Shown here piece by piece: positions 1 to 17,075 of a stretch of DNA of 38,285 bases. Numbering within the stretch: the first letter of the stretch is position 1; every line of letters starts with the position of its first letter. The position numbers and the translations under genes were made by a program. Source of the DNA: Acaryochloridaceae cyanobacterium RU_4_10 (GTDB lineage Bacteria; Cyanobacteriota; Cyanobacteriia; Thermosynechococcales; Thermosynechococcaceae). Location of the stretch: positions 1 to 38,285 of the forward strand of contig JAAURS010000002.1 of assembly GCA_012032135.1 (NCBI GenBank). The letters are read 5' to 3'. The notes below the pieces were generated by a model. It worked only from the letters and a program-made list of their open reading frames with translations, did not search any database and was not told the DNA's origin.

Positions 1-600
1 TGCGGGTATCGCCATCTGGGGTATGGACGGTTCGATGACCGTGCCAGGATTGTTTGTCGGTCGCAAACAGCACCATGCGGTTGAATAGGGGGGCGATCGC
101 ACGGATTCATTCATAGCTGATGTCCAAAGCTCTAAGTGACCGCCTTTTTCTTCTGTCCAATCAGGATTTAAGTATAAAAGTAAGTTGAGCCTTCGATACC
201 AAGGGTGAACGGGATGGGAACTGTTATCAATGTGTATGTTCAAGAAACTACTATCTGCCCCCTGAGCTAGTCCTGCTGCATAAAGCTGGCAATCCGGCAA
301 GAGATCTGGAATATCTGTAATTTGAGCAACAATATCCAGAAGGCGTCGAGAATGAAGATGTTTGAAGACAATTTCCTGAAAGATAGGATGAAATTTGCTC
401 AAGTCAGGATCTTGTGCTTTGTATTGCCGAAAATCTTTGAGTTTATCCATCTCTCCCATTTTGGGAAAGACCTGGAAAGCAGTTTTGGCAAAGTCTTCAT
501 CTAAAAAATTATCAATAATCAGGTGCCGATGCGGTTTAGCCTCAGCGAAGCGTTTGCGATATTTCTCAATCTGAGTTTCTAAAAAATTGTAATTGAGCAT
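1..600 (-). CDS. 2OG-Fe(II) oxygenase, 3' end off the window, frameshifted
   Basis: The protein begins MLNYNFLET, with AGGAG about 7 nt upstream of the ATG at 600. It resembles the 2OG-Fe(II) oxygenase / prolyl-4-hydroxylase-like family. It has the HxD iron-ligand pair in NIHIDNSSHPVHPW, then YRRLNLLLYLNPDW and GGHLELW. The frame then breaks near 85-100. One frame over it resumes as APLFNRMVLFATD and SWHGH, which supplies the distal iron-binding histidine. The break lies at a run of six G on the plus strand (88-93) joined to a GCGATCGC octamer, so one base is probably missing from the read. The arginine that binds 2-oxoglutarate would lie off the left edge. Substrate unknown. The adjacent glycosyltransferase suggests a role in surface glycan or glycoprotein modification, which is inference. 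Confidence 0.8.
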   Translation of the reverse strand, partial: MLNYNFLETQIEKYRKRFAEAKPHRHLIIDNFLDEDFAKTAFQVFPKMGEMDKLKDFRQYKAQDPDLSKFHPIFQEIVFKHLHSRRLLDIVAQITDIPDLLPDCQLYAAGLAQGADSSFLNIHIDNSSHPVHPWYRRLNLLLYLNPDWTEEKGGHLELWTSAMNESVRSPPYSTAWCCLRPTNNPGTVIEPSIPQMAIPA

Positions 601-687: not shown

Positions 688-704
688 TGTGAATATTTTG
701 TGAA
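688..704 (-). promoter_or_regulatory. TGTGAA direct-repeat motif upstream of the 2OG oxygenase
   Basis: The plus strand reads TGTGAATATTTTGTGAA, two TGTGAA hexamers with an 11-bp period. It lies 88 nt upstream of the oxygenase start codon at 600. Near-identical 17-mers occur at 2046-2062 and 14249-14265, also upstream of minus-strand genes. A tandem hexamer with one helical turn per unit is typical of OmpR/PhoB-type binding sites. The binding protein is not known. Confidence 0.5.
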
Positions 705-719
705 CGCGATGTTGGAAGG

Positions 720-1925
720 CTAGCGTAGGGCCGTTGAACCCACAGAAGCATAGATATTGGAGAGGGTTTGGGCGATCGCACCCCAGGAATACCGCTCCTG
801 CGCTAAGCGTTGCCCATTATCCCCAAGGCGTCTGCGTTCCTCAGGTGCGTGTAGCAATTGCACAATTCCTGCCACCAAGGTATCTAATTCACCTTCAATG
901 ACCAAACCTGCTTGACTGTCGGCAATATCCGGTGAAATTTGAACTCCTGGCGTGACAACCACAGGTAGACCCGCAGCCATTGCCTCTGCTACGGCAACCC
1001 CAAAGTTCTCCGCATAGGATGGCAGCACGAATAGATCGGCCCCTTGCAATAGCAATGTTTTATCTGCTCCTGTCACAAAGCCCGTAAATGTGACACGCGA
1101 GGTTAACCCCAAAGAATCTACTAGATCAGTTAGTTCCTCAAGATATTGTTCGTCGCCAGAGCCTGCCAGGATGAGGTGACAGTCCAGTGCCTGAAGGCTT
1201 AACTGATACAATACCTGTAAGAGTAATTCAGGTCGTTTTTTGGGATGAATCCGAGACAGGAACAGAAGGATAGGTGTCTCAGATGGGATTTTGTAAAGTG
1301 CGTGGAGTTGTTGCTTGGCATCGGCTTGGGGGTGGGGGAGATCGACACCTAAGGGCAAGGTAAAGGTTTGGGTTTGAATGCCAAAATGCCGCACATCTTC
1401 GGCTTCTCCGTCTGAGGTGCAATGAATGGCAGCAGCACAGTTCAAGTTCTGCTGCTCGATCAAAAGGCTATACAGACGCTTTTTAAGCTGACTCTGGGCC
1501 AATGCCCACGGGGAAAGCTGGCCGATCGTCCGCACAATGTAGGGGATTTTCTGCCATCGGGCGATCGCACCCGCACAGGTGGAAGCATAGGAAAAAAGGT
1601 AGTGCGTTTCAACAAGATCGTAGTTTCTCAGGTGTTGCCAAAGCCATTTTGTTAGATCGGGCGAAAAAATAAAGGCTTTATCCTTTCCGACCGAAAAGCT
1701 ATCTTGTTTAGGGGTTGGAAATTGAGGAAAAAACCAGACCGGAACTCCCTCATACTCGATCCGTCGGTCAAACGGTATATCAAGCACCGTTGAACCAGCG
1801 TTATTAGTTGTGGCGATTTCCGCATCGACTCCGTGCGATCGCAATGCTCTGACCATGGCGAAAATGGCATGACTAGGACCGCCGCGCACCGACGCAACTG
1901 CTGGAATGACGTGAAGTACTTTCAT
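720..1925 (-). CDS. GT4 family glycosyltransferase
   Basis: Glycosyltransferase with a GT-B fold, expected to move a sugar from a nucleotide donor onto a glycan or lipid-linked acceptor at the cytoplasmic membrane. The N-terminal acceptor half starts MKVLHVIP and has the glycine-rich RGGPS loop. The C-terminal donor half carries SRIHPKKRPELLL and the EX7E-type motif in ENFGVAVAEAMAAGLPVVV. I prefer the ATG at 1925 because family members begin MKVLHVIP. An in-frame ATG at 1949 would add eight residues unlike the family. No strong Shine-Dalgarno is seen for either. The length of about 401 residues is normal. It lies downstream of one copy of the TGTGAA direct repeat. Donor and acceptor cannot be told from sequence. 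Confidence 0.88.
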   Translation of the reverse strand: MKVLHVIPAVASVRGGPSHAIFAMVRALRSHGVDAEIATTNNAGSTVLDIPFDRRIEYEGVPVWFFPQFPTPKQDSFSVGKDKAFIFSPDLTKWLWQHLRNYDLVETHYLFSYASTCAGAIARWQKIPYIVRTIGQLSPWALAQSQLKKRLYSLLIEQQNLNCAAAIHCTSDGEAEDVRHFGIQTQTFTLPLGVDLPHPQADAKQQLHALYKIPSETPILLFLSRIHPKKRPELLLQVLYQLSLQALDCHLILAGSGDEQYLEELTDLVDSLGLTSRVTFTGFVTGADKTLLLQGADLFVLPSYAENFGVAVAEAMAAGLPVVVTPGVQISPDIADSQAGLVIEGELDTLVAGIVQLLHAPEERRRLGDNGQRLAQERYSWGAIAQTLSNIYASVGSTALR

Positions 1926-2045
1926 TCTTAGGTCTTTTGCCACTTGCAATCAGAATATTGAGATCCCCCAAGTTTTAGCAGGGTGGCATTGGCACGATCG
2001 ACATTCGGCAAACTATCCTGCTATGTTGTATTTTCTTCACAAAGC

Positions 2046-2062
2046 TGTGAATTTTTTGTGAA
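2046..2062 (-). promoter_or_regulatory. TGTGAA direct-repeat motif upstream of the GT4 gene
   Basis: The plus strand reads TGTGAATTTTTTGTGAA, 121 nt upstream of the preferred GT4 start at 1925. It differs from the other two copies only in the central bases. An additional inverted TTCACA hexamer at 2036-2041 sits four bases before it, so this site has three half-sites. It fills the otherwise featureless gap between the GT4 gene and the MFS remnant. Confidence 0.5.
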
Positions 2063-2080
2063 TACGAATTGTTGCTGGTA

Positions 2081-2178
2081 TTAAGTCGTGCGGCTGCGGG
2101 TAAGGTTGCGCACTTGGGATTTAAAGAACGCAAACCCCAACGCAATCCTGGTTAAAATACCCCCAGTCAGCCCATAGA
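2081..2178 (-). pseudogene. C-terminal remnant of a second MFS transporter copy
   Basis: Read on minus, this stretch encodes YGLTGGILTRIALGF then AFFKSQVRNLTRSR and a TAA stop at 2081-2083. It is a diverged copy of the C-terminus of the MFS transporter encoded at 2809-4019, which reads YALTGGILVIIALGF then AVFKSQVRSLTRSR. No start codon or further MFS sequence lies upstream; instead it abuts the porin stop codon 9 nt away. It is therefore the tail of a lost tandem copy. Similarity was judged by eye over about 30 residues. Confidence 0.7.
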
Positions 2179-2186
2179 CTTGATTT

Positions 2187-2783
2187 TTAGAAAGAAAACA
2201 CAGCTCGCAATGTACCCGTAACAATAGTACTATTACTACTCTGGTTTGCAGGATTGGTAATCACTTGCAGGATTGGGGTGATTCGCAAATTTTCACTAAT
2301 CGGAATATTATAAAATGCCTCAAAGTTAGTTTGACTAGCATTGCCGACTTCTTTTAGTAGGAACGGTTGAGCGATCCCAATTCCCGCCAGATCGCTTTTG
2401 GTGAATAAATCTTGGAATGCGATGCCAGCCGACCAATATTGGGGACGAATATCGCCAAGGATTGTATTGGGATAAAAGCCATAACCATAACGGACAAATA
2501 AGCCGACTTGAGGAGAAATTGCCACTTCTATGTTGACTCCGAATACTTGAAATTTGCTCCCGAGCAGTTCGCCACCGCTGTATTGTAAGCGCATTGCGAT
2601 CGTTGTCGTGGATACTATCTCCTCCATGAACCTGACCCGTAATTATTTTTTGCCTTCCAAGAATGTGGGTTTAAGATCTGAAGGTTGCTGAATATCTATC
2701 GACTGGATTGGTTTGTTTGCTCGAACGGGAGTTAATTGGAGACCATTGAAAATAACAGATGCAATCGGGAAAGCGATTCTCAT
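2187..2783 (-). pseudogene. Decayed or truncated cyanobacterial outer-membrane porin
   Basis: The downstream part, from about 2594 to the stop at 2187, matches the C-terminus of cyanobacterial iron-uptake/OprB-like porins: QYWSAGIAF, GNASQTNFEAFYN, ITPILQVITNP, TGTLRAVFSF, with the terminal phenylalanine expected of a beta-barrel protein. Upstream, an ATG at 2783 opens a signal-like leader (MRIAFPIASVIFNG... TPVRA) that stops at a TAA at 2643-2645. Between them another frame reads ITGQVHGGDS, which looks like porin sequence, so at least two frame changes are needed to join the parts. The SLH domain and most of the barrel are absent; full-length family members exceed 500 residues. This is a relic or a badly damaged short paralogue. 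The 146-residue ORF from 2627 alone is unlikely to make a working pore. Confidence 0.65.
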
Positions 2784-2808
2784 TCCGAAGTTCCACTCAA
2801 GCTTAAGT

Positions 2809-4019
2809 TTAGACAGCGCGAGAACGAGTTAAACTACGCACCTGAGACTTGAAAACGGCAAATCCCAAAGCAATGATAACTAGAATGCCGCCAGTGAGAG
2901 CGTAGGTGCCACTTAAGCCCATTGTTTTGGTGAGCGGCTGGGTCACGATCGGCGATAAAAATTGCCCCAAAAACATCGCTGTCGAAAGGCCGCCCAATGC
3001 TCTACCTCGTAGGTTGTCAGGAACCGCAGAACTAAGCCACACTGACATATTCGGCATGATAATTCCTGACCCTATCCCTGAAATTGCTAATCCGACGAGC
3101 ACCTGTGCCCAGTTTGATGATTGGCCGATTAACAGATAGCCAATCCCCATCAATCCGAAGATAATTGGTAGAAAAGTGACAAATTCCAGCCGTTGTTTGA
3201 GCTTGCCATAGGTGACAGAGCGATCGCCGCAAATAACGTGCTAAGCGCAATTGCCATCCCACTTTGAGAAGGCAAAGCTTTGACTAAATCATCGAGAAAA
3301 AAGGGTAATTGTACGGGAATTAGATAAAAAGCAATTTGACTGAGCGTTGTCAATCCATACACGATTATCATCACGCCGATAGGTATAGATTGACCGATTA
3401 AATCGGTTCCAAATCCTAAATTCGGCTGAGCAGTATTGCTCCGATCGGGTTCGACAATAAATGCAAAAACTAATAACGCGATCGGCCATGCCAGCAGGTA
3501 AATACCAAAGGGATAATGCCAATTTTGTTGAGCGAGTGCGCCGCCCAGTGTCAGGAATACCACGCCCCCCAACCCCATAAATCCCGCCTGTAATCCCATA
3601 AATGCCGCCCGTGCGGGGCCGCCATAATAATCGGCAATTAGGGTAGTCGCACTCACCATCACTCCAGCAACAGCAAAGCCGAGTAATGCTCTTCCGACTA
3701 GAATTGCGGGTAAATTGTCTAAGAATAGACCAGAACTGCCTGCAAAACCGTACAAGATAGCAGTAATGAGTAACAGCGGTTTGCGTCCGAACCGATCGAC
3801 GATAATCCCTGCGATCGGCGAACCCATGACGATAAATAATGCGGGTAATGTGATTACTAATTTAACCAGAGTTGTCCGAAGATCGGGGTCGGCGATCGCA
3901 CTTTCAAATTGTTGTTTCATCGCTGGGAGTGATGGTGAAACGGTGGCACCAGCCATCACCGTCAGGCTACTGGCGAGTAACAGCGTTAATTTAGTCGTCC
4001 AAGAATTTGGATTTTGCAT
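2809..4019 (-). CDS. MFS transporter (DHA1-like), one frameshift
   Basis: Major facilitator transporter, probably a drug or metabolite exporter of the inner membrane. The N-terminal half has many hydrophobic segments and motif A, GIIVDRFGRKPLL, in the loop after helix 2. The frame breaks near 3219. Up to there it reads LSTLFAAIA, and one frame over it continues SVTYGKLKQRLEF to the end at 2809. The break abuts a GCGATCGC octamer at 3220-3227; restoring one base there gives an uninterrupted protein of about 403 residues, the usual MFS size. It is the last intact-looking member of the minus-strand operon that starts at 7030, next to a flavodoxin and an SDR, so export of a toxic organic compound is plausible. 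A truncated second copy of its C-terminus lies at 2081-2178. Confidence 0.85.
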
Positions 4020-4058
4020 TGGTTAAGACATCTGAGATTTTTGTGTTGCCGGGGGGAT

Positions 4059-4646
4059 CTATTTCTGCCAACGCTGGGTCGCTGTCGCAATTCTCTGGCC
4101 GTATAGTTCGCAAGATAGTCGATCGCCTGCATCGAGTTCTACCGTTTTTGTCCCCGTAAAATCAGGCACAGCTTGTCCCATCACCCCAGTATAAGAACCC
4201 AATCGATTGACCCCACTGGGTTGAGACATTTCACCCGCACCCACCCAAATCATTGAATGTTGGGCAGCATTAATTGCCAAATAAATCAGCGTTCCTTGCT
4301 TATCACCACTCAGACCGCCAGAATGAGTGAAACCACCCGCAATTTTATCTTTCCAAAGCTGTTGTGCCCAGGCACTGCTGGCACCATCTACAAATGCTTT
4401 GAATTGAGCGGCAACGCCACCCATATAAGTTGGCGAACCAAACACGATCGCATCGGCACTATTCAAAGTAGCCATCATTGCTTCATCTTTCCAGCGACCA
4501 TTGATGATTTGTTCGCCAGTAATGCGGAGTAATTTGGCTTTTGTGTCGGGAATTATTTGAGTACCTGTGGCGATCGCCTCTGCCATCAGATGGGTGTGTC
4601 CTGTTCCAGAAAAGTAGCCAATTGCAATATTTATCATAACTTTCAT
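4059..4646 (-). CDS. Flavodoxin-family / WrbA-like NAD(P)H:quinone oxidoreductase
   Basis: FMN-binding flavodoxin-fold protein of about 195 residues. The phosphate-binding loop is YFSGTGHTHLMAEAI, followed by the flavin-contacting loops FGSPTYMGGVAAQFKAFVD and GGFTHSGGLSGDK. The spacing is that of WrbA-like and NADPH-dependent FMN reductases, which reduce quinones by two electrons in the cytoplasm. Start is ambiguous: ATG at 4646 gives MKVMINIAIGYF, while ATG at 4637 gives MINIAIGYF, closer to the family; neither has a clear ribosome-binding site. It lies between the SDR and MFS genes in the operon facing the HxlR regulator, and HxlR proteins often control quinone or aldehyde reductases. Exact substrate unknown. 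Confidence 0.85.
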   Translation of the reverse strand: MKVMINIAIGYFSGTGHTHLMAEAIATGTQIIPDTKAKLLRITGEQIINGRWKDEAMMATLNSADAIVFGSPTYMGGVAAQFKAFVDGASSAWAQQLWKDKIAGGFTHSGGLSGDKQGTLIYLAINAAQHSMIWVGAGEMSQPSGVNRLGSYTGVMGQAVPDFTGTKTVELDAGDRLSCELYGQRIATATQRWQK

Positions 4647-4676
4647 TTCAATTGAATCGGATTATCGATAGAATAA

Positions 4677-5411
4677 CTACAAAATGCCACCATTGACTTG
4701 TAGATTTTGTCCGGTCATCCAGTGAGCGTCATTACCGACTAAAAATGCCACCACATCAGCAATGTCTGCGGGTTGTCCCAAGCGTCCGAGGGGGGTTTGT
4801 TGAATGAGATGGTCGATCGCCGATTGTGGCAAAATCAATCCATCAGTTTCAGTAACGCCGGGAGATACTACATTCACAGTCACCTGACGCTGCCCGATCT
4901 CTTTAGCCAATGCGAAAGCAAATTGTTCGCCTGCTGCTTTACTGGCTGCATACAAGCCACCCGTAATTCGAGGCTGTTTGGTAGCTCCAGTGGAAAACTG
5001 GACGATCCGTCCGCCATCTTTGACGCAATTAGCGGCTGCTTGCAACATATACACGGCACCTTTAACGTTCACTGAAAATACTTTGTCAACATCTTCATCG
5101 GTTAGCTCGGTATGAAGTTTATAAGCTGCTGCACCTGCTACATTTATGACAATATCGACTACTCCCAACTGCTTCTCTGTTTCGTTAAATAATCGGGTCA
5201 CATCGGCTTTGTTGGCTACACTACCTTGGATGGCAATCGCTCGTCCGCCGTTGGTAATAATTTCCTTCACTACAGCTTCGGCTTTGTCTGGCGAAGCAAC
5301 ATAGTTAACTGCTACGGCTGCTCCATCTCGTCCTAATCGCAAGGCGATCTCTTTACCAATTCCCCGCGATGAAGCGGTAACGATCGCTACTTTTCCAGTT
5401 AATGCTGTCAT
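4677..5411 (-). CDS. Short-chain dehydrogenase/reductase (SDR)
   Basis: Classical NAD(P)-dependent SDR of about 244 residues. The cofactor loop is TASSRGIGKEIA, with serine where the second glycine of TGxxxGIG usually stands. The NNAG-like motif is NVAGAAA, the catalytic motif is YAASKAAG, and the C-terminus DAHWMTGQNLQVNGG is the usual SDR ending. I prefer ATG at 5411 (MTALTGKVAIVTA) because GAGGA lies 7 nt before it. The upstream ATG at 5420 sits directly on that GAGGA. An oxidoreductase of alcohols, ketones or quinones is expected; the exact substrate cannot be read from sequence. It is part of the HxlR-linked operon and probably co-transcribed with the flavodoxin 30 nt downstream. Confidence 0.88.
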   Translation of the reverse strand: MTALTGKVAIVTASSRGIGKEIALRLGRDGAAVAVNYVASPDKAEAVVKEIITNGGRAIAIQGSVANKADVTRLFNETEKQLGVVDIVINVAGAAAYKLHTELTDEDVDKVFSVNVKGAVYMLQAAANCVKDGGRIVQFSTGATKQPRITGGLYAASKAAGEQFAFALAKEIGQRQVTVNVVSPGVTETDGLILPQSAIDHLIQQTPLGRLGQPADIADVVAFLVGNDAHWMTGQNLQVNGGIL

Positions 5412-5471
5412 TGTTTTCATCCTCGGTAGAGTTTGTTTGCGCTGATGTTGTCATCATTCGAGCACTGCTAT

Positions 5472-5983
5472 TCAATCAACAAGTTTTAAATCGCCAATGG
5501 TCCGATCCTCCTGATTCTTTGGCGACACCAATAACCCCCAACTCGCAAAGGTTAGTGCTGCGATCGCCAATCCTGTTCTAAGCCAGTGCCAAGTTGCCCA
5601 AGTATGGATAGCATTGCCAATTTGAGGAAGTGCGATCGCTCGAGTTAAAAATTCGGCATTGGCTCCGGCAAAGTAGATCGGATAGGTAATGGTGCAAGCA
5701 AAAATGAAAATCAAGCTCAGTCCTAAAGGGATTCGGCTCGTTGGTCGCAGTTTCCAAGCAGTGCCGAAGGCGGCGATCGTGAGCAGTAAAGCGACTATAT
5801 TCAATGGCACCATTAAGGCTGGAAAACGAAAAAATGATCGTTCATCCAATTGAGAAAAACATCTGGCTGCACTGCTTGCCAAAATCTGACGACTACAAAA
5901 GCAATGAATAGGAAGGCTCCAGAGAAGAGACTGAGAGCAATCACAGACAATAGATTTAGGATTCTGGAAAGATTTATCATCAT
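5472..5983 (-). CDS. DUF1772-type integral membrane protein, frameshifted
   Basis: A small membrane protein. From ATG at 5983 (MMINLSRILNLL) it has a hydrophobic N-terminal helix, then VVRFWQAVQPDVFLNWMNDHFF. The frame breaks in a run of six A on the plus strand (5829-5834). Restoring one base joins it to RFPALMVPLNIVALLL and three further hydrophobic stretches ending at 5472. The repaired product is about 170 residues with four predicted membrane helices, matching the DUF1772 / anthrone-oxygenase-like family. Those proteins often sit beside SDRs and flavin reductases, as here. Function is not established. Left unrepaired, the downstream part would be a 136-residue ORF with an implausible N-terminus. 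Confidence 0.7.
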
Positions 5984-5994
5984 GTCAATCTCAT

Positions 5995-6381
5995 CTAAAG
6001 TAGAGTACGTTCTGGCTCAGAAAGCGTGACTTGGACAGTAATTTTGCCGTCATTAAGAAGCCACGGACGAATCGTAAAAGTCCTTGCACCACTTCGATGC
6101 ATCGGATCGGCTTGAGCAATTTGATGTGCTTCCTCAACTGAATGTGCGCGGTAGATTAGCAATCCATCGCCTTCAAAATATTGACCATCATCTGTCCAAA
6201 GTGGGCCTGCACCAAACAAAGTATTTTTATTTTCCAGTTCACATAAATAAGCTCGATGATCTGGCAGATTTTGTTTGACAGCATCTAGGCTTTGGGCAAT
6301 GGAGGTTACGACATAAAGCTGCATACGCAAAGATGGAGCAGATGTTTCAATAATTTTGGCAGATTCAACGCGATCGCCCAT
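5995..6381 (-). CDS. YciI-family protein
   Basis: About 128 residues with a single YciI-like domain, a dimeric ferredoxin-like fold. Visible family marks are PDHRAYL with the conserved histidine, GAGPLWTDDGQYFEGDGLLIYRA, and ADPMHRSGARTFTIRPW with the conserved aspartate. In studied members the His/Asp pair forms an active-site cleft, and some are dehydrochlorinases or degrade chlorinated aromatics; most have no known reaction. AGGAGA lies about 8 nt before the ATG at 6381, which sets the start. The gene follows the isochorismatase-like gene by 58 nt and precedes the DUF1772 gene by 11 nt, so it belongs to the HxlR-linked operon. A role in handling aromatic or quinone compounds is inferred from that context only. 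Confidence 0.82.
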   Translation of the reverse strand: MGDRVESAKIIETSAPSLRMQLYVVTSIAQSLDAVKQNLPDHRAYLCELENKNTLFGAGPLWTDDGQYFEGDGLLIYRAHSVEEAHQIAQADPMHRSGARTFTIRPWLLNDGKITVQVTLSEPERTLL

Positions 6382-6439
6382 GATTATTTCTCCTTAATTG
6401 ACCAAATGGTTGTAACTCGATTTTGCTTGCTCTAGTCGA

Positions 6440-7030
6440 TCAAGCAGCAATTGTTGGGAGCACATGCTGGAAGAGGACTTGAATCAATTGGCTACCCGCA
6501 GGCGTACTCCAATCCTGTGCTAATTCAGCAATAATCGAATCCGTTGCAGTCAAAATCGTTCCAGCATTTTCCATCCGGTGGCGAGATACTTCTTCGGCAA
6601 GTTCGGAAGGAGATCCGCAAGCATCCATCACAGCTTGGACGGTATAGCCAGCAGCGATCGCACTCAGAGCTGGATAAACCACACAAACACTGGTTGTCAC
6701 CCCAGCCATAATCAGATTTTTCTTGCCTGTCGCGGCAACGGCTGCGCTGAAGTTGGGATCGTTCCAGGCATTGACAATCCCTGCTCGCTGAATACGCGCC
6801 TCAAATGCTTCGGGTAGAATTTCTTGCAACTCAGGCAGTAAAGAACCTTGGACGTTGGTTTCCTGACTGCTCGTGAGCACAACGGGCATGTTCAGGATTT
6901 TGGCGGTTTTGGCGAGGGCGATCGCATTTTGCTTCACTACTTCGTAGGGAATATTTTTGACCAACTGCATTGTGCCGACTTGGTGATCGATTAAGAGGAG
7001 AGCAGAATCTTGGGATGTAAAAATAGTCAT
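6440..7030 (-). CDS. Isochorismatase-family (YcaC-like) hydrolase
   Basis: Cysteine hydrolase of about 196 residues. It has the first catalytic aspartate in LLIDHQVGTMQL, the family strand VVLTSSQE, and the nucleophile cysteine in MAGVTTSVCVVYPALSA. The length and the PxxxxRxGIVNAWNDPNF segment suit the YcaC-like subgroup, whose physiological substrates are unknown. AGGAGA lies 8 nt before the ATG at 7030. It is the first gene of the minus-strand operon and faces the HxlR regulator gene across 142 nt, so it is probably the most directly controlled gene. The operon also encodes YciI, DUF1772, SDR, flavodoxin and MFS proteins. Confidence 0.88.
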   Translation of the reverse strand: MTIFTSQDSALLLIDHQVGTMQLVKNIPYEVVKQNAIALAKTAKILNMPVVLTSSQETNVQGSLLPELQEILPEAFEARIQRAGIVNAWNDPNFSAAVAATGKKNLIMAGVTTSVCVVYPALSAIAAGYTVQAVMDACGSPSELAEEVSRHRMENAGTILTATDSIIAELAQDWSTPAGSQLIQVLFQHVLPTIAA

Positions 7031-7120
7031 TGCGTTTGTCTCCTATTTGTTTAAAGTCGGTTGACATTACCTCGAACTTCAATGTATTGATTATCTAGCT
7101 GAAGCCTTCAATATGACAAG

Positions 7121-7155
7121 TACGTACAAAAAAATGCTATACATACAAAAATGTG
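7121..7155. promoter_or_regulatory. Candidate HxlR operator, tandem direct repeat
   Basis: The gap between the divergent HxlR and hydrolase genes holds TACGTACAAAAAAATG at 7121-7136 and TACATACAAAAATGTG at 7140-7155. They share TAC-R-TACAAAAA and lie 19 bp apart, close to two helical turns. The first copy contains the perfect palindrome GTACGTAC when read with the preceding G. The site lies 18-52 nt before the HxlR start codon, where autoregulation would be expected. Binding by the adjacent HxlR protein is inferred from position. Confidence 0.5.
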
Positions 7156-7172
7156 CGTAAGGGAAATAGTTT

Positions 7173-7562
7173 ATGAATTCATCGAGTCAAGGTAATCCTC
7201 CGACCAATATTCTGGATTTCCACCCCCATCTGCGCCAAACCCTAGATTTGGTAGCGGATAAATGGGTAGTAGCAGTGTTATATATTTTGTCTAGCGGAAC
7301 GAAGCGTTATGGCGAGTTGCAGCGCGAAATCGGCGACATTTCGCAGCGGATGTTAACTCGAACGTTGCGCGATTTAGAACGTAATGGGCTCGTCCAACGT
7401 AAGGTGTATCCAGTAGTACCGCCAATGGTGGAGTATTCTTTGACAATCTTAGGAGAAACGATCAATGGAGTCCTCAAGTCGGTTTGCGAGTGGTCAACCG
7501 AGAATTTCGATGCCGTGGAAGCAGCGAGAGCTGAGTACGATCGCTCTCAAGGTCGTCAATGA
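7173..7562 (+). CDS. HxlR-family winged-helix transcriptional regulator
   Basis: About 129 residues with a single HxlR domain: LDLVADKWVVAVLYILSSG opens the winged helix, RYGELQREIGDISQRMLTRTLRDLERNGLVQR is the recognition region, and VVPPMVEYSLTILGET is the wing and following strand. The usual cysteine near the N-terminus of redox-sensing members is not evident; a cysteine occurs late, in KSVCEWS. AAGGGA lies before the ATG at 7173. Family members often repress or activate a divergent operon in response to quinones, aldehydes or disulfide stress. Here the divergent operon holds a flavodoxin, an SDR and an exporter, which fits that role. The ligand is unknown. Confidence 0.9.
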   Translation: MNSSSQGNPPTNILDFHPHLRQTLDLVADKWVVAVLYILSSGTKRYGELQREIGDISQRMLTRTLRDLERNGLVQRKVYPVVPPMVEYSLTILGETINGVLKSVCEWSTENFDAVEAARAEYDRSQGRQ

Positions 7563-7572
7563 TTCTGCAATT

Positions 7573-8271
7573 TCATTTGGAAACCACTTCTAGAGGGGGC
7601 GTAAACATCTTTTTCACGGCACCGCAGATCGGACAATGCCAGTCATCTGGAATATCTTCAAATGCCGTACCGGGAGCAATACCAGAATCTGGATCGCCTG
7701 CCGCAGGGTCGTAAATCACGCTGCACTGTTTGCAGATCCACTTTTGGGTTGCTTGCTTTTCAGGGGCAATGCCGCCATTGAGAACCGTAAGCGCCTCAGT
7801 ATAGAGATCGGCATGATGATGTTCGATAGGCGTTAGGAGTCCAAATCGATGGGCAGCTTGGCGAAAGGTTCGCGCATGGGTCGCAGATTCTTCGCTTTGG
7901 GCTTGGAATTCTGCTGCTGCCGCTCGATCGCGCTCTGCGATCGCCATTTCGGTAAACTCAGGATACATGGTGGTGTATTCGTAGGTTTCACCCTCGATCG
8001 CTAGGGCTAAACATTGGGCAACGATCGCTTTTTTCTGTGCTTCAGAGAGTGCTACGGGGTCTGCGATAACCAGTTCGGGATGCAGTAGGGTGAAATGGGC
8101 AAAAGCGTGGGCAGTCTCCTGCTCAGCGGTTTCTTTAAAGAGTTTGGCAATGTCAGTAAAACCTAACTTGCGCGTAACATCTGCAAAAAAGAGATACTTG
8201 CGGTTGGCGATCGCTTCGCCACTAAAGGCAGTAACTAGATTCTGAAATGTTGTAGCTTTGGATAAGTCCAT
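7573..8271 (-). CDS. Rubrerythrin
   Basis: Non-haem iron peroxidase of about 232 residues that reduces hydrogen peroxide in the cytoplasm. The N-terminal four-helix ferritin-like domain (about 1-150) shows the di-iron ligands in [43 protein letters not shown] and [11 protein letters not shown]. The C-terminal rubredoxin domain (about 175-225) has the two Cys pairs CKQC and CPIC with [25 protein letters not shown] between them. A purine-rich AGAGG lies before the ATG at 8271. It converges with the HxlR gene and faces the AraC-type gene across 208 nt. Its placement beside a stress regulon fits oxidative-stress defence. Confidence 0.95.
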
Positions 8272-8479
8272 TGGATGCCTCTTATAGACAAGAATACTTT
8301 GTAACCAGTTGAGTGTTTATCGGCTAAGGGTTTGAGGCTGCAATGAATGCTTTCTGATTTTAGACATTACTGTTATAGGCAAATCTAGATGCCCCTGTCT
8401 TGACGCTTCTTGGGCTTTTTTATCTAAAGTTGGGGAATCTTGAAAAAATCAGATAATGTTCTAAAAAAGCTGCTGCATA

Positions 8480-9448
8480 ATGGCAATATCTCGATATGCT
8501 CGGCAAGGAAAGCCCTCTAAGGTTAAACGTATGATCCAAGATCCCTTAACCGCTTCTTTACCTTCCTTTGATCGGCAAGATGACATTTGCCATCCTTTAG
8601 TCCTATTTAAGGAGGAATGGGCTGTTCATGGTGAAATTACTCTGCATTCAGGTGGGCTGATCGTTCGACATGACATAGAGCCACCAGATGAGGTTGAAAC
8701 GCCTGGAGTCACGCATAATATGCTGATGATGGTCTTAAATAAAGCCTCTCGGCAAGTTCATCGATTCAGTGGAAGTCAATACGATGGACCGCAACAGCCT
8801 GGAAATTTTGGGCTATTACCAGCAGGAGAATCTGCATTTTTTCATTGGGAAAGTACCGATGAAGTAATCTGTTTTATGACAGAACCGCAGTTTCTTCAAA
8901 AAACGGCCATAGAAAATGATTGTCTCAACTCTGACGAGCTAGAACTTCAACCCATTCTGATGGCAATGGATCCTCAGATACATGCCCTAGCGCTCCAGTT
9001 CAAACAGGAAATGCAGAACAATGCTCTCGGCGGACAGATGTATAGCGAATCCTTAGCAAATGTTTTTGCTATTCACCTACTGCGAAACTACTGCACGACT
9101 GCGCCTATTTTGCGGACGTATGCAGGAGGGCTATCGACAAAACGATTAAAGCAGACGATCGCTTATATCCAAGCTCATCTCCATGAAAAACTGAGTCTAG
9201 ATGCGATCGCTGCTGAACTAAATCTAAGCATTTACTATTTCTGCGAACTCTTTACCCAGTCAATGGGTATACCGCCTTATAAATATGTTTTGCAACAGCG
9301 AGTCGAACGGGCAAAGCAACTGCTAAAACAATCCCAAAAGCCACTTGCCGAGATTGCCTTAGACTGCGGGTTTGCCAGTCAGTCTCACCTGAATCGCCAC
9401 TTCCACAAACTAGCGGGCGTTACGCCTAAAAAATACCGCGATCGTTAA
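8480..9448 (+). CDS. AraC-family transcriptional regulator
   Basis: The C-terminal 100 residues form a double helix-turn-helix AraC domain: KQTIAYIQAHLHEKLSLDAIAAELNLSI, then QRVERAKQLL and LAEIALDCGFASQSHLNRHFHKLAGVTPKKYR, the family signature. The N-terminal 200 residues have the look of a cupin-like sensor but no identifiable ligand motif. Two starts are possible: ATG at 8480, giving 322 residues with a basic, unusual N-terminus, and ATG at 8531 (MIQDPLTASL), with TAAGG upstream; I lean to the second but it is not decided. The gene faces rubrerythrin across a shared 208-nt promoter region. Targets are unknown. Confidence 0.88.
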   Translation: MAISRYARQGKPSKVKRMIQDPLTASLPSFDRQDDICHPLVLFKEEWAVHGEITLHSGGLIVRHDIEPPDEVETPGVTHNMLMMVLNKASRQVHRFSGSQYDGPQQPGNFGLLPAGESAFFHWESTDEVICFMTEPQFLQKTAIENDCLNSDELELQPILMAMDPQIHALALQFKQEMQNNALGGQMYSESLANVFAIHLLRNYCTTAPILRTYAGGLSTKRLKQTIAYIQAHLHEKLSLDAIAAELNLSIYYFCELFTQSMGIPPYKYVLQQRVERAKQLLKQSQKPLAEIALDCGFASQSHLNRHFHKLAGVTPKKYRDR

Positions 9449-10034
9449 TCTCATCAACCGATTACTTAGCTGCTAACCAAGATAATTGGGCTATGCTTTT
9501 TAAGCTATCCAAGGCCCCCATCCCGCTAGAAGCATCGATCGCCCTAGCATCAGGGGATTTTTCGAGCCTCGGCAAACAGCCTTGCACCAGCCGCCTTACG
9601 CCAAAGGTTGGTTTGCATTGCTGTGTTGTGGAGTTTGCGCGAGAAGAAAATTGCAACCTTGTGGATTGAGATTCAATCATGTTTTAATGAAAATAGCAGA
9701 CAAAAACTAACATCCTGACTATAAAATGGGAATCTGAACCTGAACCCAATGCAATCTTTAGAACCCAAACCATTGTTATTAGATGTTCATCGGATCACTC
9801 TTCGCGTTACCCATGAAGAGTTTGAGCGGCTAGGTCCTGGAGTCTCCTACCTCGATCGACTGTAATGAAGTCATGCCAGGGTTTATATTAGATATGAGTA
9901 GAATTTGGTGATTAGGTTTTGTTGATTGCATGAAATCATATTAAGGTTCCCGAAATCAGATAACTCGAAGCCGCTCGTCACCTGGCATAAACAGGCATTC
10001 ATGTCCTCATCGGTGCCCGCGATGTAACCAAATT
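9449..10034. other. Gap with gene remnants, no complete gene
   Basis: No convincing complete gene is seen in this 586-nt stretch between the AraC gene and asnB. It holds a short open frame at 9749-9865 and a plus-strand piece around 9967-10068 that looks like a broken reductase. The minus-strand open frame at 9462-9680 has no recognisable protein features. The gap therefore looks like a site of past gene loss between two oppositely oriented units. Confidence 0.5.
9749..9865 (+). CDS. Short hypothetical ORF, 38 residues
   Basis: ATG-initiated frame encoding MQSLEPKPLLLDVHRITLRV then THEEFERLGPGVSYLDRL. The phrase VTHEEFERL followed by a leucine-rich segment resembles the opening of cyanobacterial Uma2/DUF820 proteins, where a similar helix precedes the catalytic core, but the rest is missing. 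It may be a truncated relic or chance. No ribosome-binding site stands out. Confidence 0.25.
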   Translation: MQSLEPKPLLLDVHRITLRVTHEEFERLGPGVSYLDRL

Positions 10035-10068
10035 TTATCCTGAAACCTTCTGCAACCAATGCTGAAGA
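9967..10068 (+). pseudogene. Possible remnant of a short-chain reductase
   Basis: Read in one plus frame the sequence gives EAARHLA, a TAA stop, then TGIHVLIGARDVTKFYPETF. This resembles the first helix and second strand of SDR proteins, where GIGLEVARQL is followed by a short loop and VLIGARD. There is no start codon and no catalytic motif, so if real it is a fragment. It overlaps the 3' end of asnB on the other strand by about 30 nt. Similarity was judged by eye. Confidence 0.35.
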
Positions 10069-11831
10069 ATACTTAGACTCCAACGGCGAGACCAATTTTT
10101 TAACGGGATCTTTTTGCGGTTATGTTTAAAATCATGGAGCAGATCTTGCCATTCTCCAGCTAGCCATTGCTCAAAGGGAAAGGCAAAAGGCTGTTTTGGG
10201 CGATTTACGACCCAGCTTGGTAACTCAGGTACTGCATCGATCGCGATTTGCTTGCCAGGAGAGAGACGCAGTTGGCTGGGAATACTGGCAATCGCCTCTA
10301 ATAAAACTCGATCTGCCAGGGGCGTGCGTAGTTCTAGCCCACAGGACATGCTCATGACATCGCTATCGCGCAGGAGTTGGTTGCGCATGTAGCGATTGAG
10401 TTCGAGGAAACTGACCTCGTCTTCCAGGGTGGGAAGGTGGGGAAGATGGGTGGGGCGATCGCGGCTCGGCAAAATTGAGTCGCCAACGTACTGCTGGAGT
10501 AGCGTACACGCCTCCCAATGAGAAAAAATTCCCCGCACGCATCCGTAAGCTGTTGCTGATGTTGGAGCTTGCTGGAGCCAATCTCCTAATCGTCTGGTGC
10601 GGGTTGAGGTGCCCCAACGTTCCAGGCCCATACCTACTGTGCTGCGGATAGCACCTAGTCCCTGAATTTGCTTCCCCAGCCGCACCATTTGCGGCACTTT
10701 TTGAAAGGAAAGATACCCACCAAACAGTTCGTCGCCCCCTACCCCCGACAACACCACCCGCGTGCCATCTTTTCGGGCCAGTTGCGAGACGCAAAAACTA
10801 TTGAACCCATCAATGGTGGGCTGATCGAGGGTCTTTAGAAACTGCGGGAATAGTTCGCGCCCTAGAGTGGCTGTCATCGTGTATTCGGTATGCTCCGTCC
10901 CAAAGCGATCGGCAACCTTTTGAGCCACTTCTCCTTCATTCCAGCGCTCCTCCTCAAAGGCGATCGAATAGGTTCGCACATCCTGAGTTTGCGTTTGCCG
11001 CGCTAAGGCCACCACTGCCGTCGAATCAATCCCGCCACTGAGAAAAATCCCCACGGGTACATCGCTGATAAAATGATGTTGGATGGAATCGACTAGCGCA
11101 TCACGGACGATTTGTACCGCCTCTGGTTGGGAAATCGTTGCTGGAGTAAAGTCCATACTCCAGTAACGCTGCTGCGAGAGTTCTCCGGCGTGCCAACGCA
11201 GCCAATGTCCTGCTTCCAAACAGTAGATCCCCTCAATTAAGGTGTGGGGCTCCGGCACAGAGCCACTGGTGAGATAGCCATACAATCCATCCACGCTCAG
11301 ACAGCGGGAAGGAAGTTGTGTGGCCAGAATACTTTTGAGTTCTGAAGCAAAAACCAGGCTGGAGCCAGATTGCCAGTAGTAGAGCGGCTTGATACCGAGG
11401 GGATCTCGGGCCAGAAAGCAGGTTTTCTCCAGATCGTCCCAAATGGCAAAGGCAAACATACCCCGCAAAGCTTGCACGCAATTGCTGCCCAGTCTTTGGT
11501 AGAGCTTGAGAATGACTTCAGTATCCGTCTGAGAGTGAAAGGTTTCCCCTCGATCGATCTGGATCTGTCGCAACTCTCGGAAATTGTAGATTTCCCCGTT
11601 GAAGGTAATCCAGTAGCGCCCATCAGGGGTACACATGGGCTGATGGCCCGCTGAACTGAGATCCAAAATGGCCAGACGGGTATGAGCGATCGCCGCTTGC
11701 CGATCGGGTGCAATGAATATCCCGCGATCGTCTGGCCCCCGATGTTGCAGCGCCTGCTGCATCCGTTGGATCGGAATGTCCAGATTCTCTTCACGCCCGT
11801 TTTGGGTTAGGATGCCAGCGATTCCACACAT
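10035..11831 (-). CDS. asnB: Asparagine synthase (glutamine-hydrolysing)
   Basis: Makes asparagine, or an amide on another carboxylate, from glutamine and ATP. Start is ATG at 11831 because the N-terminal glutaminase needs cysteine at position 2 (MCGIAGIL). A TTG nine bases upstream would bury it. The glutaminase domain has QHRGPDDRG, FNGEIYNFRELR and TDTEVILKLY; the synthetase domain has the ATP loop GIFLSGGIDSTAVVAL and LSGVGGDELFGGY. Length of about 598 residues is normal. Only one nucleotide separates its start from the stop of the glycosyltransferase upstream (TGA-G-ATG), which implies translational coupling. In surface-polysaccharide clusters AsnB homologues often amidate sugar acids or act on glycan precursors, so a role in that operon is as likely as amino acid supply. 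Confidence 0.92.
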   Translation of the reverse strand: MCGIAGILTQNGREENLDIPIQRMQQALQHRGPDDRGIFIAPDRQAAIAHTRLAILDLSSAGHQPMCTPDGRYWITFNGEIYNFRELRQIQIDRGETFHSQTDTEVILKLYQRLGSNCVQALRGMFAFAIWDDLEKTCFLARDPLGIKPLYYWQSGSSLVFASELKSILATQLPSRCLSVDGLYGYLTSGSVPEPHTLIEGIYCLEAGHWLRWHAGELSQQRYWSMDFTPATISQPEAVQIVRDALVDSIQHHFISDVPVGIFLSGGIDSTAVVALARQTQTQDVRTYSIAFEEERWNEGEVAQKVADRFGTEHTEYTMTATLGRELFPQFLKTLDQPTIDGFNSFCVSQLARKDGTRVVLSGVGGDELFGGYLSFQKVPQMVRLGKQIQGLGAIRSTVGMGLERWGTSTRTRRLGDWLQQAPTSATAYGCVRGIFSHWEACTLLQQYVGDSILPSRDRPTHLPHLPTLEDEVSFLELNRYMRNQLLRDSDVMSMSCGLELRTPLADRVLLEAIASIPSQLRLSPGKQIAIDAVPELPSWVVNRPKQPFAFPFEQWLAGEWQDLLHDFKHNRKKIPLKNWSRRWSLSILQHWLQKVSG

Positions 11832-11832
11832 C

Positions 11833-13008
11833 TCAGGCAAAAACCTCCAAAGGCTGAATTAAGTTGGAGAACTGCTGAATCTGATGGGAGAGTGTTTGTT
11901 GAAAGCGATCGAAGCCAAATCGGTCAATGACAGCTTGGTGTAGGGCTTCCGGCTGATACATTAAGGGGTTGGGATAGGTTTTTTGGAGAATTTGAATCAG
12001 AGTTTGGGCGATCGCGTTACTATCATCCGGGTTAACCAAAGCCCCCAGTGCTCCATGACACAACGCATCTTGAGCGCCATCTCGATCGCCTGCTAAGGTC
12101 GGTTTGCCACAAGCCATAGCTTCTAAATAAACAATGCCAAACCCTTCCCCGTGGCTGGGCATGGCGAACACATCGCAAAGATTGTAATAATCGCAAAGTT
12201 CAGAATCAGGAATAAGTCCGGCCAAGGTGACGCAGTCTTGAAGCTGATGGCGTGCAATCCATTGTTCCAATCGGGGGCGATCGTCTCCTTGCCCGACCAG
12301 GATATAGCGAACATTGGGAATAGCTTGCCGAATCTGTGAAAGTGCTTCTAAAACTTTGTTATATCCTTTGTAGGATTCGTTTTGGCTCAGACGGCTGACG
12401 GTCAGGACAACGGGTTGCTCTGGCTGCAATTGATGGCGTTCCAGTAAGTAGGACGGTTTCGCCCCAATCCAAAATCGATCCGTATCAAAGGTGTTGGGCA
12501 AGATCGAGACTTTTTCTGGAGAGAGATCTTGTTCTCGGAGCAGGCGATCGCGGGTATATCCACTCACGGCCAGAATCCGATCTGCCTCGTGCAATGCCGC
12601 TTTTAGCGCGGGACGTTTGATATCCCAGGCTTCTATCCCGTGGGCGATCGTCCAATAGGGAATTCCTGCCAGTCGTTTTAGCCAATGTGCTGCGATCGTA
12701 AAGTTGAGATGGGTGCAGATGACTAAATCAGGGCGTTGGCGTAGCCCGCTACTGAGAATCTGAGTCGCAAAAGCTGGCGATCTTAGGAATAAAGGCCAAG
12801 CACCAGCAAAATGGAATTGAGTATCCAAGTCAATTAAAACATCAGAATTCTGTGGCAGGGACGAATCATGCTTCAGAAATACTTCAATATTGAAGCTCAA
12901 GGGTAGCGTTTGCAAAGCATTCAGCAAAAAAGAAGAATAGACTTGGATTCCACCTCTAAATTCAAAAATATTAGGCAACCATAGATGAATATTTCGTTTT
13001 TTTATCAT
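11833..13008 (-). CDS. GT4 family glycosyltransferase
   Basis: GT-B glycosyltransferase of about 391 residues. The N-terminal half has FRGGIQVYSSFLLNAL, the glycine loop seen in GT4 enzymes, and HLNFTIAAHWLKRL. The C-terminal half has VSRLSQNESYKGYNKVLEAL, LVGQGDDRPRLE and the EX7E motif in HGEGFGIVYLEAMACGKPTLAG. It is the middle gene of a three-gene operon, 13 nt after the preceding glycosyltransferase and coupled to asnB. The set suggests assembly of an exopolysaccharide or O-antigen unit at the inner membrane. Sugar specificity is unknown. Confidence 0.9.
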   Translation of the reverse strand: MIKKRNIHLWLPNIFEFRGGIQVYSSFLLNALQTLPLSFNIEVFLKHDSSLPQNSDVLIDLDTQFHFAGAWPLFLRSPAFATQILSSGLRQRPDLVICTHLNFTIAAHWLKRLAGIPYWTIAHGIEAWDIKRPALKAALHEADRILAVSGYTRDRLLREQDLSPEKVSILPNTFDTDRFWIGAKPSYLLERHQLQPEQPVVLTVSRLSQNESYKGYNKVLEALSQIRQAIPNVRYILVGQGDDRPRLEQWIARHQLQDCVTLAGLIPDSELCDYYNLCDVFAMPSHGEGFGIVYLEAMACGKPTLAGDRDGAQDALCHGALGALVNPDDSNAIAQTLIQILQKTYPNPLMYQPEALHQAVIDRFGFDRFQQTLSHQIQQFSNLIQPLEVFA

Positions 13009-13021
13009 GGTTTCAACCCAA

Positions 13022-14197
13022 TCAAGCCACTAAGCTCTTGATATCTGCAAGCAAAGGAGAAAATACTGATTCATAATTAAATTTCTGTTCAAATGCAGTT
13101 CTGGCAGACACGCACATAGATTTATAGCTCTCAAGATCGCTCAAAATATCAAGCACTGCTGACACGATCGAATGCGGATCGTCGGGATCTGCAAAACGAA
13201 CCCAAGACTCTCCTGAAAGATAGTCCCGATAGGTTGAAAAATCGCTCACAACCACAGGAAGTCCACAGGCCGCATATTCATAGATTTTGTTACAGGCGCT
13301 CGCACAAGCCACTCGATCAAAACTCTTATTCTTATACAGTGCAAAGCCAATACTTGAAGAGAAGGTAGGATCTTGCAAATCTTTATAGGGAAGCACACCT
13401 AAATAAGAAAAGCGATTGGATATATTTTCACAATTGACCCAATTCTTTAAATCGTTATAGACATCATCATGAATGAACCCAACAAATCTAATATTAATAT
13501 GTTTAATTAATTTACTTAGAAGAGATGTTGTAGTAATCATTTCCTTCATAGAGCTTGTCTCTGAGATCCACCCTCTGTAGAACAAGGTTACAAACTTCCA
13601 GCGCATTTCAATAATTGACATCCAATTTTCATCTAGAACAAATTGTGAATTTAATGGAAAATTTGGAACAATAATAGGCTGTCTGCTTAAATTCATTTGT
13701 GTTTGAAACAAATTTGCCCGATCTCGATCTGGAAATACAACAATGTTAGCTTTATGTATGAATTTTTTCTCTGCTCTCTGGATCCATCCCGTCAATGAAT
13801 GAAGCGGCTCCATATATTTGCTAATTTCGTGATTTTGATAGATTGTTGGAGCTTTATGAAATGAGAAAAACCGTGACAGATAGGCTGCAACATATCCAAA
13901 AGAATCGTAGGCATAGATCAGTGATACATCTTTGAAAAGATCTTTGACATTTACAATAAAATTTATATATTCCCAAAACTTATTCGCGGACGAGGCTTGC
14001 ATCCGTTCCACAATCGATGAGTATTTTCCTAGCCTAATAACTCGAACGTTGTTGGGATATTCACAATCGATCGGATCGTAATTGCGACCAATCAAAACGA
14101 CATCAAACTGTGCAGACAAGAGTCGAATCGCGTTGACTGTGGGAGGGTAATAATCGGGATTTGCGTAGATAACTACCCCAATCTTTTTCTTATCCAT
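13022..14197 (-). CDS. Glycosyltransferase (GT-B fold), likely acquired
   Basis: About 391 residues. It starts MDKKKIGVVIYANPDYYP and keeps the C-terminal donor-site pattern ACNKIYEYAACGLPVVVSDF followed by YRDYL, as in GT4-like enzymes, though the N-terminal half is not close to a named subfamily. Base composition is clearly more A+T rich than the two genes downstream, with many AAA and ATT codons, which suggests horizontal acquisition. The ATG at 14197 has no strong Shine-Dalgarno. A TGTGAA direct repeat lies 52 nt upstream, so this gene probably leads the operon with the second glycosyltransferase and asnB. Acceptor and donor are unknown. Confidence 0.82.
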   Translation of the reverse strand: MDKKKIGVVIYANPDYYPPTVNAIRLLSAQFDVVLIGRNYDPIDCEYPNNVRVIRLGKYSSIVERMQASSANKFWEYINFIVNVKDLFKDVSLIYAYDSFGYVAAYLSRFFSFHKAPTIYQNHEISKYMEPLHSLTGWIQRAEKKFIHKANIVVFPDRDRANLFQTQMNLSRQPIIVPNFPLNSQFVLDENWMSIIEMRWKFVTLFYRGWISETSSMKEMITTTSLLSKLIKHINIRFVGFIHDDVYNDLKNWVNCENISNRFSYLGVLPYKDLQDPTFSSSIGFALYKNKSFDRVACASACNKIYEYAACGLPVVVSDFSTYRDYLSGESWVRFADPDDPHSIVSAVLDILSDLESYKSMCVSARTAFEQKFNYESVFSPLLADIKSLVA

Positions 14198-14248
14198 TGG
14201 ACTTGTAAAGATAGATAGTCCGAACAGCTTTCAATCTTAAAGTACCAA

Positions 14249-14265
14249 TGTGAATAATTTGTGAA
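14249..14265 (-). promoter_or_regulatory. TGTGAA direct-repeat motif upstream of the GT-GT-asnB operon
   Basis: The plus strand reads TGTGAATAATTTGTGAA, 52 nt upstream of the glycosyltransferase start at 14197 and in the gap to the receiver gene. It is the third copy of the 17-bp motif also at 688 and 2046. The regulator at 17076-19442 has an OmpR-type winged helix and lies nearby, so it is an obvious candidate for binding; that link is inference. Confidence 0.5.
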
Positions 14266-14296: not shown

Positions 14297-14677
14297 TTAT
14301 TCCTGCCAGCAAAGAATAGTACGGATCTGCTCGACCAATTCTTGGGCTTTAATGGGTTTGGTAATAACGCCTGCTACACCCAAGCTCGTGAATTCCTGGA
14401 GTTCGCTCAGTTTTGCTTTTGCCGTCAACAAAATAGTCGGGATGTGTTGAATGACGGTATTAGCCTGTAGTTGTCGAAAGGTTTCAGCCCCATCCATATC
14501 GGGCATCATAACGTCTAGAAGAATGGCATTGGGCTGCTCTACTTCTGCTTTAACTAAGCCCTCGCTACCCGAATGGGCTGTTGAGACGTCCCAGCCTCCA
14601 GCAGCTTCAAGGGAGAACTGGATAATTTCCCTCACCCCATCATCGTCATCGATGACCAATATTTTTTTGGTTGCCAT
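14297..14677 (-). CDS. Single-domain CheY-like response regulator
   Basis: About 126 residues, one receiver domain with no output domain. It begins [18 protein letters not shown], with acidic pocket DDDD; the phospho-acceptor aspartate is in [13 protein letters not shown]; the conserved threonine and lysine are in [10 protein letters not shown] and [12 protein letters not shown] choose the ATG at 14677, where MATKKILVI begins, because upstream in-frame sequence belongs to the kinase. Its start overlaps the repaired 3' end of the histidine kinase by about 32 nt, so kinase and receiver are co-translated and probably form one phosphorelay. Confidence 0.9.
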
Positions 14678-17026: not shown

Positions 17027-17075
17027 GGAGTTGCACGGCTCATAACAAGCCAATTGGAAGTTTGAAGATAGACTA

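Follow-up and report, generated by a model that had tools for sequence, protein, structure and literature searches.

A TTCACA direct repeat upstream of cyanobacterial surface and secretion genes, with an adjacent hybrid response regulator as its most likely binder

Background

A 38,285-nucleotide contig of Acaryochloridaceae cyanobacterium RU_4_10 (C243 entire; hereafter the window) carries three copies of a direct repeat, TGTGAA-N5-TGTGAA, each lying ahead of a transcription unit for sugar modification. What are these repeats, and which protein might bind them? A sequence-only reading of the window had compared them with the sites of OmpR/PhoB-type dimers. It named the hybrid regulator encoded nearby as a possible binder and suggested that cyclic di-GMP (c-di-GMP) signalling is thereby tied to surface glycan genes. 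In our view the repeats are probably operator-promoter elements that are bound by this adjacent regulator and drive a regulon of surface and secretion genes. If this is correct, the DNA specificity and the regulon are new; the kind of promoter is already known.

The window belongs to a draft genome (G000) of 4.48 Mb in 442 contigs, 77% complete. Motif scans also covered 58 related genomes and 388 genomes of the class, and the control was in each case the same pattern read backwards. Our handles starting with G, C and L denote genomes, contigs and loci. G002 is of the same genus as G000 and G017 of another genus, while G107 and G158 are close relatives of each other in a different family. What we call the linked set consists of 29 copies from seven genomes: G000 (8), G002 (4), G017 (3), G107 (5), G158 (6), G101 (1) and Calothrix sp. 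PCC 7103 (2). They were picked because they lie near the regulator or cluster together, which may bias counts made on them. The Calothrix copies come from a contig scan of at least 80 loci that was not a census. Two sources were left out of the set: a G001 copy (L068:9989) that belongs to a tandem array ending at a start codon, and G344 (three copies), where the best regulator scores 601 bits.

Results and discussion

The repeat and its conservation

An exact search finds the three copies where they had been reported (Table 1) and no further exact copy in the window; 0.02 are expected, and none of 100 dinucleotide shuffles gave three. With up to two mismatches there are five matches against 4.28 expected, so that the two extra ones are noise. 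The three downstream units (2OG oxygenase, family 4 glycosyltransferase or GT4, and the operon of two glycosyltransferases and asnB, GT-GT-asnB) are all on the minus strand, as described before. The distances of 88, 121 and 52 nt given earlier agree with ours, having been counted to the first codon base rather than from box end to ATG. Read toward the gene, the box is TTCACA-N5-TTCACA. Its hexamers are exact in 27 of the 29 linked copies, with an 11-nt period, and 21 copies fit TTCACAAAWTATTCACA. A CRP-like inverted site was rejected on inspection: in every copy the hexamers are direct, not inverted.

A genome-wide search, which the sequence-only reading had proposed, returns eight exact copies in the draft genome and none of the reversed control. 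They sit on four contigs, C188, C229, C236 (three copies) and C243 (three), which together make up 74 kb or 1.7% of the assembly. At three mismatches the count is 37 against 16 in the control, from which it follows that the box is tight and that the list beyond the eight is mostly noise.

Two further questions had been raised with the repeat, namely whether it is equally common inside genes and whether it is conserved upstream of orthologous ones. All 29 linked copies are intergenic, although the loci are 82.2% coding by a simple caller of open reading frames (ORFs; at least 120 amino acids (aa), trimmed to ATG/GTG). The next such ORF is on the same strand as the box in 28 of 28 cases; the 29th copy runs into a contig end. 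As for conservation, the box is kept while its flanks diverge. At the orthologous glycosyltransferase promoter of G002 the exact box and the next ~15 bases are retained and the preceding sequence has diverged. Since the G002 contig starts inside the receiver gene, the order of receiver gene, box and glycosyltransferase gene is conserved there as well. A box is also kept 55-58 nt upstream of the genes for MCKS..., a conserved small protein that matches no Pfam family, in G000, G002 and G017 (L009:7149-7624, L063:10472-10915, L064:17135-17575).

These results bear on the notion that the copies are a mobile repeat, or noise that stems from chance, low sequence complexity or tandem repeats. Elsewhere in the class there are indeed repeats of the TTCACA type, both in tandem arrays and as single copies. 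Nevertheless, eight copies against none in the own genome, the intergenic place and orientation of the whole linked set, and the diverged flanks around identical boxes already refute this notion for the linked set, and we regard it as barely conceivable.

Promoter geometry

In the 29 linked copies, the sequence downstream of the box has T at position 4 (23 copies), position 9 (21) and position 14 (24), and A at position 10 (18). A T....T pattern that starts at offset 9 is shared by 19 of the 29 linked copies but by only 7 of 60 unlinked ones (p = 4e-7), and TAN3T at that offset in 10 of 29 and 3 of 60, respectively. Among the 60 are the copies of G176 and G275, which later looked real; this bias works against our own reading. 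Because the idea of offset 9 arose from the copies of G000, G002 and G017 (T....T in 9 of 15), the 14 copies fetched later were counted apart. Ten of these 14 have it (p = 2e-5), with the reservation that two of the source genomes are close relatives. When, as a check on the kinship of G107 and G158, the five rows of L143 and L144 are dropped, 24 copies remain, of which 18 have T at 9 and 19 have T at 14. The geometry thus suggests a class II promoter of the PhoB type over the whole set, if not in every copy.

Two degenerate candidates of the own genome may be mentioned here. A possible ninth site (C298:9159-9175, L013:1501) reads TTCACAACATACTCACA, with two mismatches, has TTCGAT at offset 9 and lies 108 nt before a methyltransferase-like gene. 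The other, C165:856 (TTAACAAAATATTAACA), was rejected: it has no T....T at offset 9.

How does the box compare with known operators? Pho boxes of E. coli are tandem 8-bp direct repeats joined by an A/T linker of 3 bp, and they lie 10 bp ahead of a -10 element TAN3T/A (PMC1906773). Direct repeats with an 11-nt period are described for the PHO boxes both of PhoB in E. coli and of PhoP in Streptomyces coelicolor (PMC4415409, PMC1906773). The present box has the same period, and T....T follows its second hexamer by 9 nt in the 19 copies mentioned, where the E. coli -10 element follows by 10 bp; this likeness in spacing suggests that the box serves activation and replaces a -35 element. TTCAC is also contained in the S. 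coelicolor core, GTTCACC. The core TTCACA differs, however, from CTGTCAT of E. coli, and the targets are surface and secretion genes. It differs also from the cyanobacterial SphR box, described as CTTAACCT in at least three repeats (PMC1906773); ours has TTCACA in two. A scan of the own genome for the SphR box at two mismatches gave 19 matches, fewer than the 26 of the control. The box would thus work like a PHO box, yet with this core and two repeats we do not class it as one.

The HLR1 element of RpaB is described as two (G/T)TTACA(T/A)(T/A) units separated by 2 nt, with a 10-bp period (PMC9241938). Like our box it is a cyanobacterial direct repeat with an OmpR-type binder (predicted in our case), but core (TTCACA here) and period (11 bp here) are different, so that the two were rightly kept apart before. 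A literature search of limited depth met no published operator of the sequence TTCACA-N5-TTCACA.

The fixed distance to the -10-like element could also be accommodated by an alternative sigma factor, for which hexamers and T....T would be -35 and -10 parts of a promoter that has no activator site. We consider this improbable. Identical hexamers exactly 11 bp apart around an A/T-rich spacer are, going by the sources on PHO boxes, the mark of tandem winged-helix binding, and such a sigma factor would leave unexplained why the copies cluster beside one response regulator.

The adjacent regulator

The product of 17076-19442 has three receivers, a Trans_reg_C winged helix, an Hpt domain and a GGDEF domain. 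A receiver joined to Trans_reg_C places it in the OmpR/PhoB family, and its nearest solved structure by sequence is RegX3 (1.7e-44). The closest relative in the 58 genomes, 69% identical (G017, C87:135997-137883), adjoins all three boxes of the G017 cluster. The order regulator, PAS kinase, single-domain receiver, box and target row recurs in G000, G017, G107 and G158, and all four of the aligned regulators share D51, H304, D424 and D549.

A model made from these four was run over the 388 genomes, where its own members come out on top by construction. Fifth, with 900 bits, and thus best of those outside the alignment, is the regulator of G101, which was not used to build the model. This genome has a single match to TTCACAANNNATTCACA, 5.2 kb upstream of the regulator. 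It heads a same-strand row of SDR, isochorismatase-like (by eye), OprB and regulator genes, with kinase and receiver behind. By simple arithmetic (a background of 37 places in ~380 genomes) a copy would fall that near by chance less than once in 1000. In Calothrix sp. PCC 7103 the homologue is 53% identical and has two one-mismatch copies beside it, each followed by T....T at offset 9. One, TTCACAAAATATTCACT, lies 130 bp from where the regulator starts and points away from it; the other, TTCACAAAATCTTCACT, precedes a gene for a PAS protein.

In a tree of 68 rows all six motif-linked regulators fall within one clade of 13 (support 95/92). The label "motif-linked" needs three changes on this tree, and none of 500 shuffles gave as few. 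Outside the clade one-mismatch matches were seen in two scanned neighbourhoods, L169 and L187, and neither has the A-rich core. The presumed recognition helices of the motif-linked proteins read ENTVRAHIKSLRQKLK and ENTVRAHIKSLRRKLK (window and G017), ENGVRAHIKGLRRKLK (G107, G158), ENGVRAHVKALRRKLK (G101) and VNTVRAHIKALRRKLK (Calothrix); most other regulators have EDTIRSHIKGLRQKLK or EEAVRTHIKGLRQKLK.

Since copies cluster beside one regulator lineage in four genomes, in G101 and in Calothrix, the binder proposed by the sequence-only reading has gained good support from linkage, with relatives co-located with copies in other families. The box appears to be a genuine conserved operator of class II type, most likely bound by the adjacent hybrid regulator. 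Several observations weigh against this assignment. The six motif-linked regulators do not form one clade, and the seven other members of the 13-row clade have no copy next to them, although three of these lie on contigs that are just 3.7 to 9.6 kb long. Scans for a variant box beside the seven, by exact and by relaxed direct repeats, gave nothing convincing. One of the clade members without an adjoining copy, that of G083, has the helix ENTVRAHIKSLRQKLK of the window regulator, for which reason the helix alone does not predict the box. In G176 and G275 boxes precede homologues of G107/G158 targets, but no regulator there scores above 752 bits. There is no box copy in the upstream region of the window regulator gene. 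Finally, T....T at offset 9 is present in only four of the eight own-genome copies and one of the three in the window (14249, TAAGAT).

A rival reading accepts a real operator of OmpR type and has it bound mainly by a different protein: SphR/PhoB, RpaB/RpaA or a paralogue of the window regulator. The site class is common to OmpR/PhoB proteins, the own genome encodes several related regulators (for example on C157, C72, C269 and C350), and the boxes of G176 and G275 have no close orthologue of the window regulator. Nonetheless, the copies adjoin one lineage in several families, ~45 neighbourhoods of more distant relatives have no core-matching copy, and the SphR and RpaB elements differ in the ways given above (core and repeat number for the one, core and 10-bp period for the other). 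We therefore judge another main binder to be unlikely, though considerably less so than a sigma factor.

Assuming that the adjacent regulator is the binder, the following mechanism can be suggested. Two copies of it, or of a conserved REC-wHTH-Hpt-REC-REC core (receivers, winged helix, Hpt), would bind the TTCACA hexamers head to tail, one helical turn apart. The bound pair would replace the -35 element ~9 nt upstream of -10, as PhoB does, so that activation rather than repression is expected. Phosphate may be supplied by the neighbouring PAS histidine kinase and single receiver protein and reach the first receiver through Hpt, which would switch the promoters on. The products would be cell-surface or secreted. 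In this genome they would come from glycosyltransferase operons, whereas those of the relatives would include double-glycine peptides with C39 exporters, and giant proteins of the beta-helix/RTX type.

What remains of the suggested tie to c-di-GMP? The window regulator does carry a GGDEF domain, which reads GGEEF, and to that extent the suggestion stands. The domain is not conserved, being absent from five of the six motif-linked regulators (G017, G101, Calothrix 7103, G107 and G158); the clade members G045 and G364 do carry it. Hence c-di-GMP can be no more than an extra in the window lineage. A comparable chain from phosphorelay to c-di-GMP exists in cyanobacteria: in Anabaena PCC 7120, CdgK, a kinase with receivers and Hpt, feeds CdgS, a receiver-GGDEF protein (PMC9927289). 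The window protein, by contrast, unites receiver, winged helix, Hpt, two receivers and GGDEF in one polypeptide, whereas the available part of that source mentions no DNA-binding domain for CdgK-CdgS; the absence of GGDEF from the five relatives is another difference.

A regulator, large kinase and receiver triad also occurs without the box in G368 and G377 (L266:4571-12969, L267:8560-14210). The G377 triad adjoins glycosyltransferase-like genes, so that a diverged operator may exist there.

Downstream genes

Besides the three units of the window, boxes of the own genome precede an epimerase gene followed by GT4; a row with a GT4-like start, a Wzt-like ABC protein and a polysaccharide deacetylase; a signal-peptide-like protein whose gene is truncated where the contig ends; and the MCKS... 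protein. Another target, 144 nt behind its box on C236 (L009:6661-6807), is a peptide of 48 aa with the double-glycine leader MKTDLKSNLLIELTTQETAAISGG and a glycine-rich tail. A counterpart in G017, also of 48 aa, glycine-rich and with a leader ending in MIAGG, lies directly behind a box (L064:10882-11028). APH-like, HopA1-family, C39 peptidase, ABC and HlyD genes follow it (L064:10882-17047, contig C87); judged by these families, this is a set for peptide modification and export. HopA1 and a kinase reportedly occur together in class V lanthipeptide clusters. We do not claim a lanthipeptide for G017, because the peptide tail has no cysteine.

Small proteins with a double-glycine secretion motif, EbfG, are proven to matter for biofilm in Synechococcus elongatus (PMC4997328). 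In a comparison by description, the motif is found in EbfG and in our two peptides alike.

G107 and G158 have as targets beta-helix/Calx-beta/RTX proteins of up to 1895 aa, PpiC with a C39-cNMP-ABC exporter, SDR, a zinc alcohol dehydrogenase and a PadR-like gene directly before the regulator. In G176, of yet another genus, a box lies 640 nt before the gene for a 1293-aa homologue of these beta-helix/RTX proteins. The common theme of the downstream genes is therefore surface and secreted material. The glycan regulon that had been proposed is borne out by the glycosyltransferase operons of the own genome, but glycans are just one part of the set.

A wider speculation can be made. In several cyanobacterial families, one phosphorelay regulator with its kinase and receiver might be the master switch dedicated to building the extracellular matrix. 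Through one conserved class II box it would turn on operons for sugar polymers, the double-glycine peptides together with their C39 exporters, and giant adhesin-like proteins of the beta-helix/RTX type; in the window lineage the same polypeptide would be a diguanylate cyclase as well. We put this forward tentatively, as possible rather than probable. If it were true, one phosphorylation event would set both matrix transcription and c-di-GMP in the window lineage. Apart from this speculation, the linkage gives an uncharacterised class of cyanobacterial hybrid regulators a readable DNA code, with which a list of the regulon can be drawn up wherever a genome has the box. It also offers a testable control circuit for the export of polysaccharides, peptides and adhesins, perhaps with a role in matrix and biofilm.

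Occurrence across the class

Some exact TGTGAA-N5-TGTGAA occurs in 30 of the 58 related genomes (G000 included), mostly as one or two scattered copies and often with as many in the control. Two genomes stand out: G002 has four copies, all on a single contig of 13.5 kb, and the three copies of G017 fall within 9.2 kb. Over the 388 genomes TTCACAANNNATTCACA is matched at 62 places, which belong to 37 genomes; the reversed control has 11 matches. Twenty-five of the 62 are in G000, G002, G017, G107, G158 and G101, and the remaining 37 are scattered among 31 genomes. G107 has four and G158 five such copies; one TTCACACATTATTCACA in each was noticed on reading the loci. No multi-copy genome beyond those already known turned up among the 42 genomes in the family of G107 or the 36 in that of G101.

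Other features and minor observations

The features of the window are collected in Table 1. The kinase frame seems cut short, because its ATPase domain covers profile positions 2-72 of 111 alone. The epimerase gene of contig C236 and the kinase gene of G017 are each split over two frames.

Table 1. Box copies and neighbouring features of the window
Feature	Position	Strand	Remarks
2OG-Fe(II) oxygenase superfamily gene	1..600	-	cut by contig start
Box copy TTCACAAAATATTCACA	688..704	-	toward 2OG oxygenase gene, ATG 87 nt on; GAAATA at offset 9, no T....T
GT4 gene	720..1925	-	
Box copy TTCACAAAAAATTCACA	2046..2062	-	toward GT4 gene, ATG 120 nt on; AGAAAA at offset 9, no T....T
Asparagine-synthase (asnB-like) gene	10035..11840	-	
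Family 4 glycosyltransferase gene	11833..13008	-	
Glycosyltransferase gene	13022..14197	-	first after box 14249
Candidate -10 element TAAGAT (predicted)	14234..14239	-	9 nt after box 14249-14265; coordinates by arithmetic from box
Box copy TTCACAAATTATTCACA	14249..14265	-	toward GT-GT-asnB, ATG 51 nt on
Single-domain receiver gene	14297..14713	-	immediately before box 14249
PAS/HAMP histidine kinase gene	14795..17053	-	
Hybrid regulator gene, REC-wHTH-Hpt-REC-REC-GGDEF	17076..19442	-	proposed binder

TTCACA-core tandem arrays in 11-bp units are seen in other genomes at L050:1501-1539, L070:9392-9403, L041:1501-1512 and L097:1501-1512; some such arrays have three or more units, and the offset-9 signature is absent from most. 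In G344, two TTCACA direct repeats 70 nt apart (L151:9623 and 9693), with TATAGG and TAATAG at offset 9, precede a gene that by eye resembles a polysaccharide chain-length/tyrosine-kinase protein; this genome has no close regulator orthologue. Two of its copy loci adjoin, again by eye, a chain-length-determinant-like gene and a CRISPR-type region.

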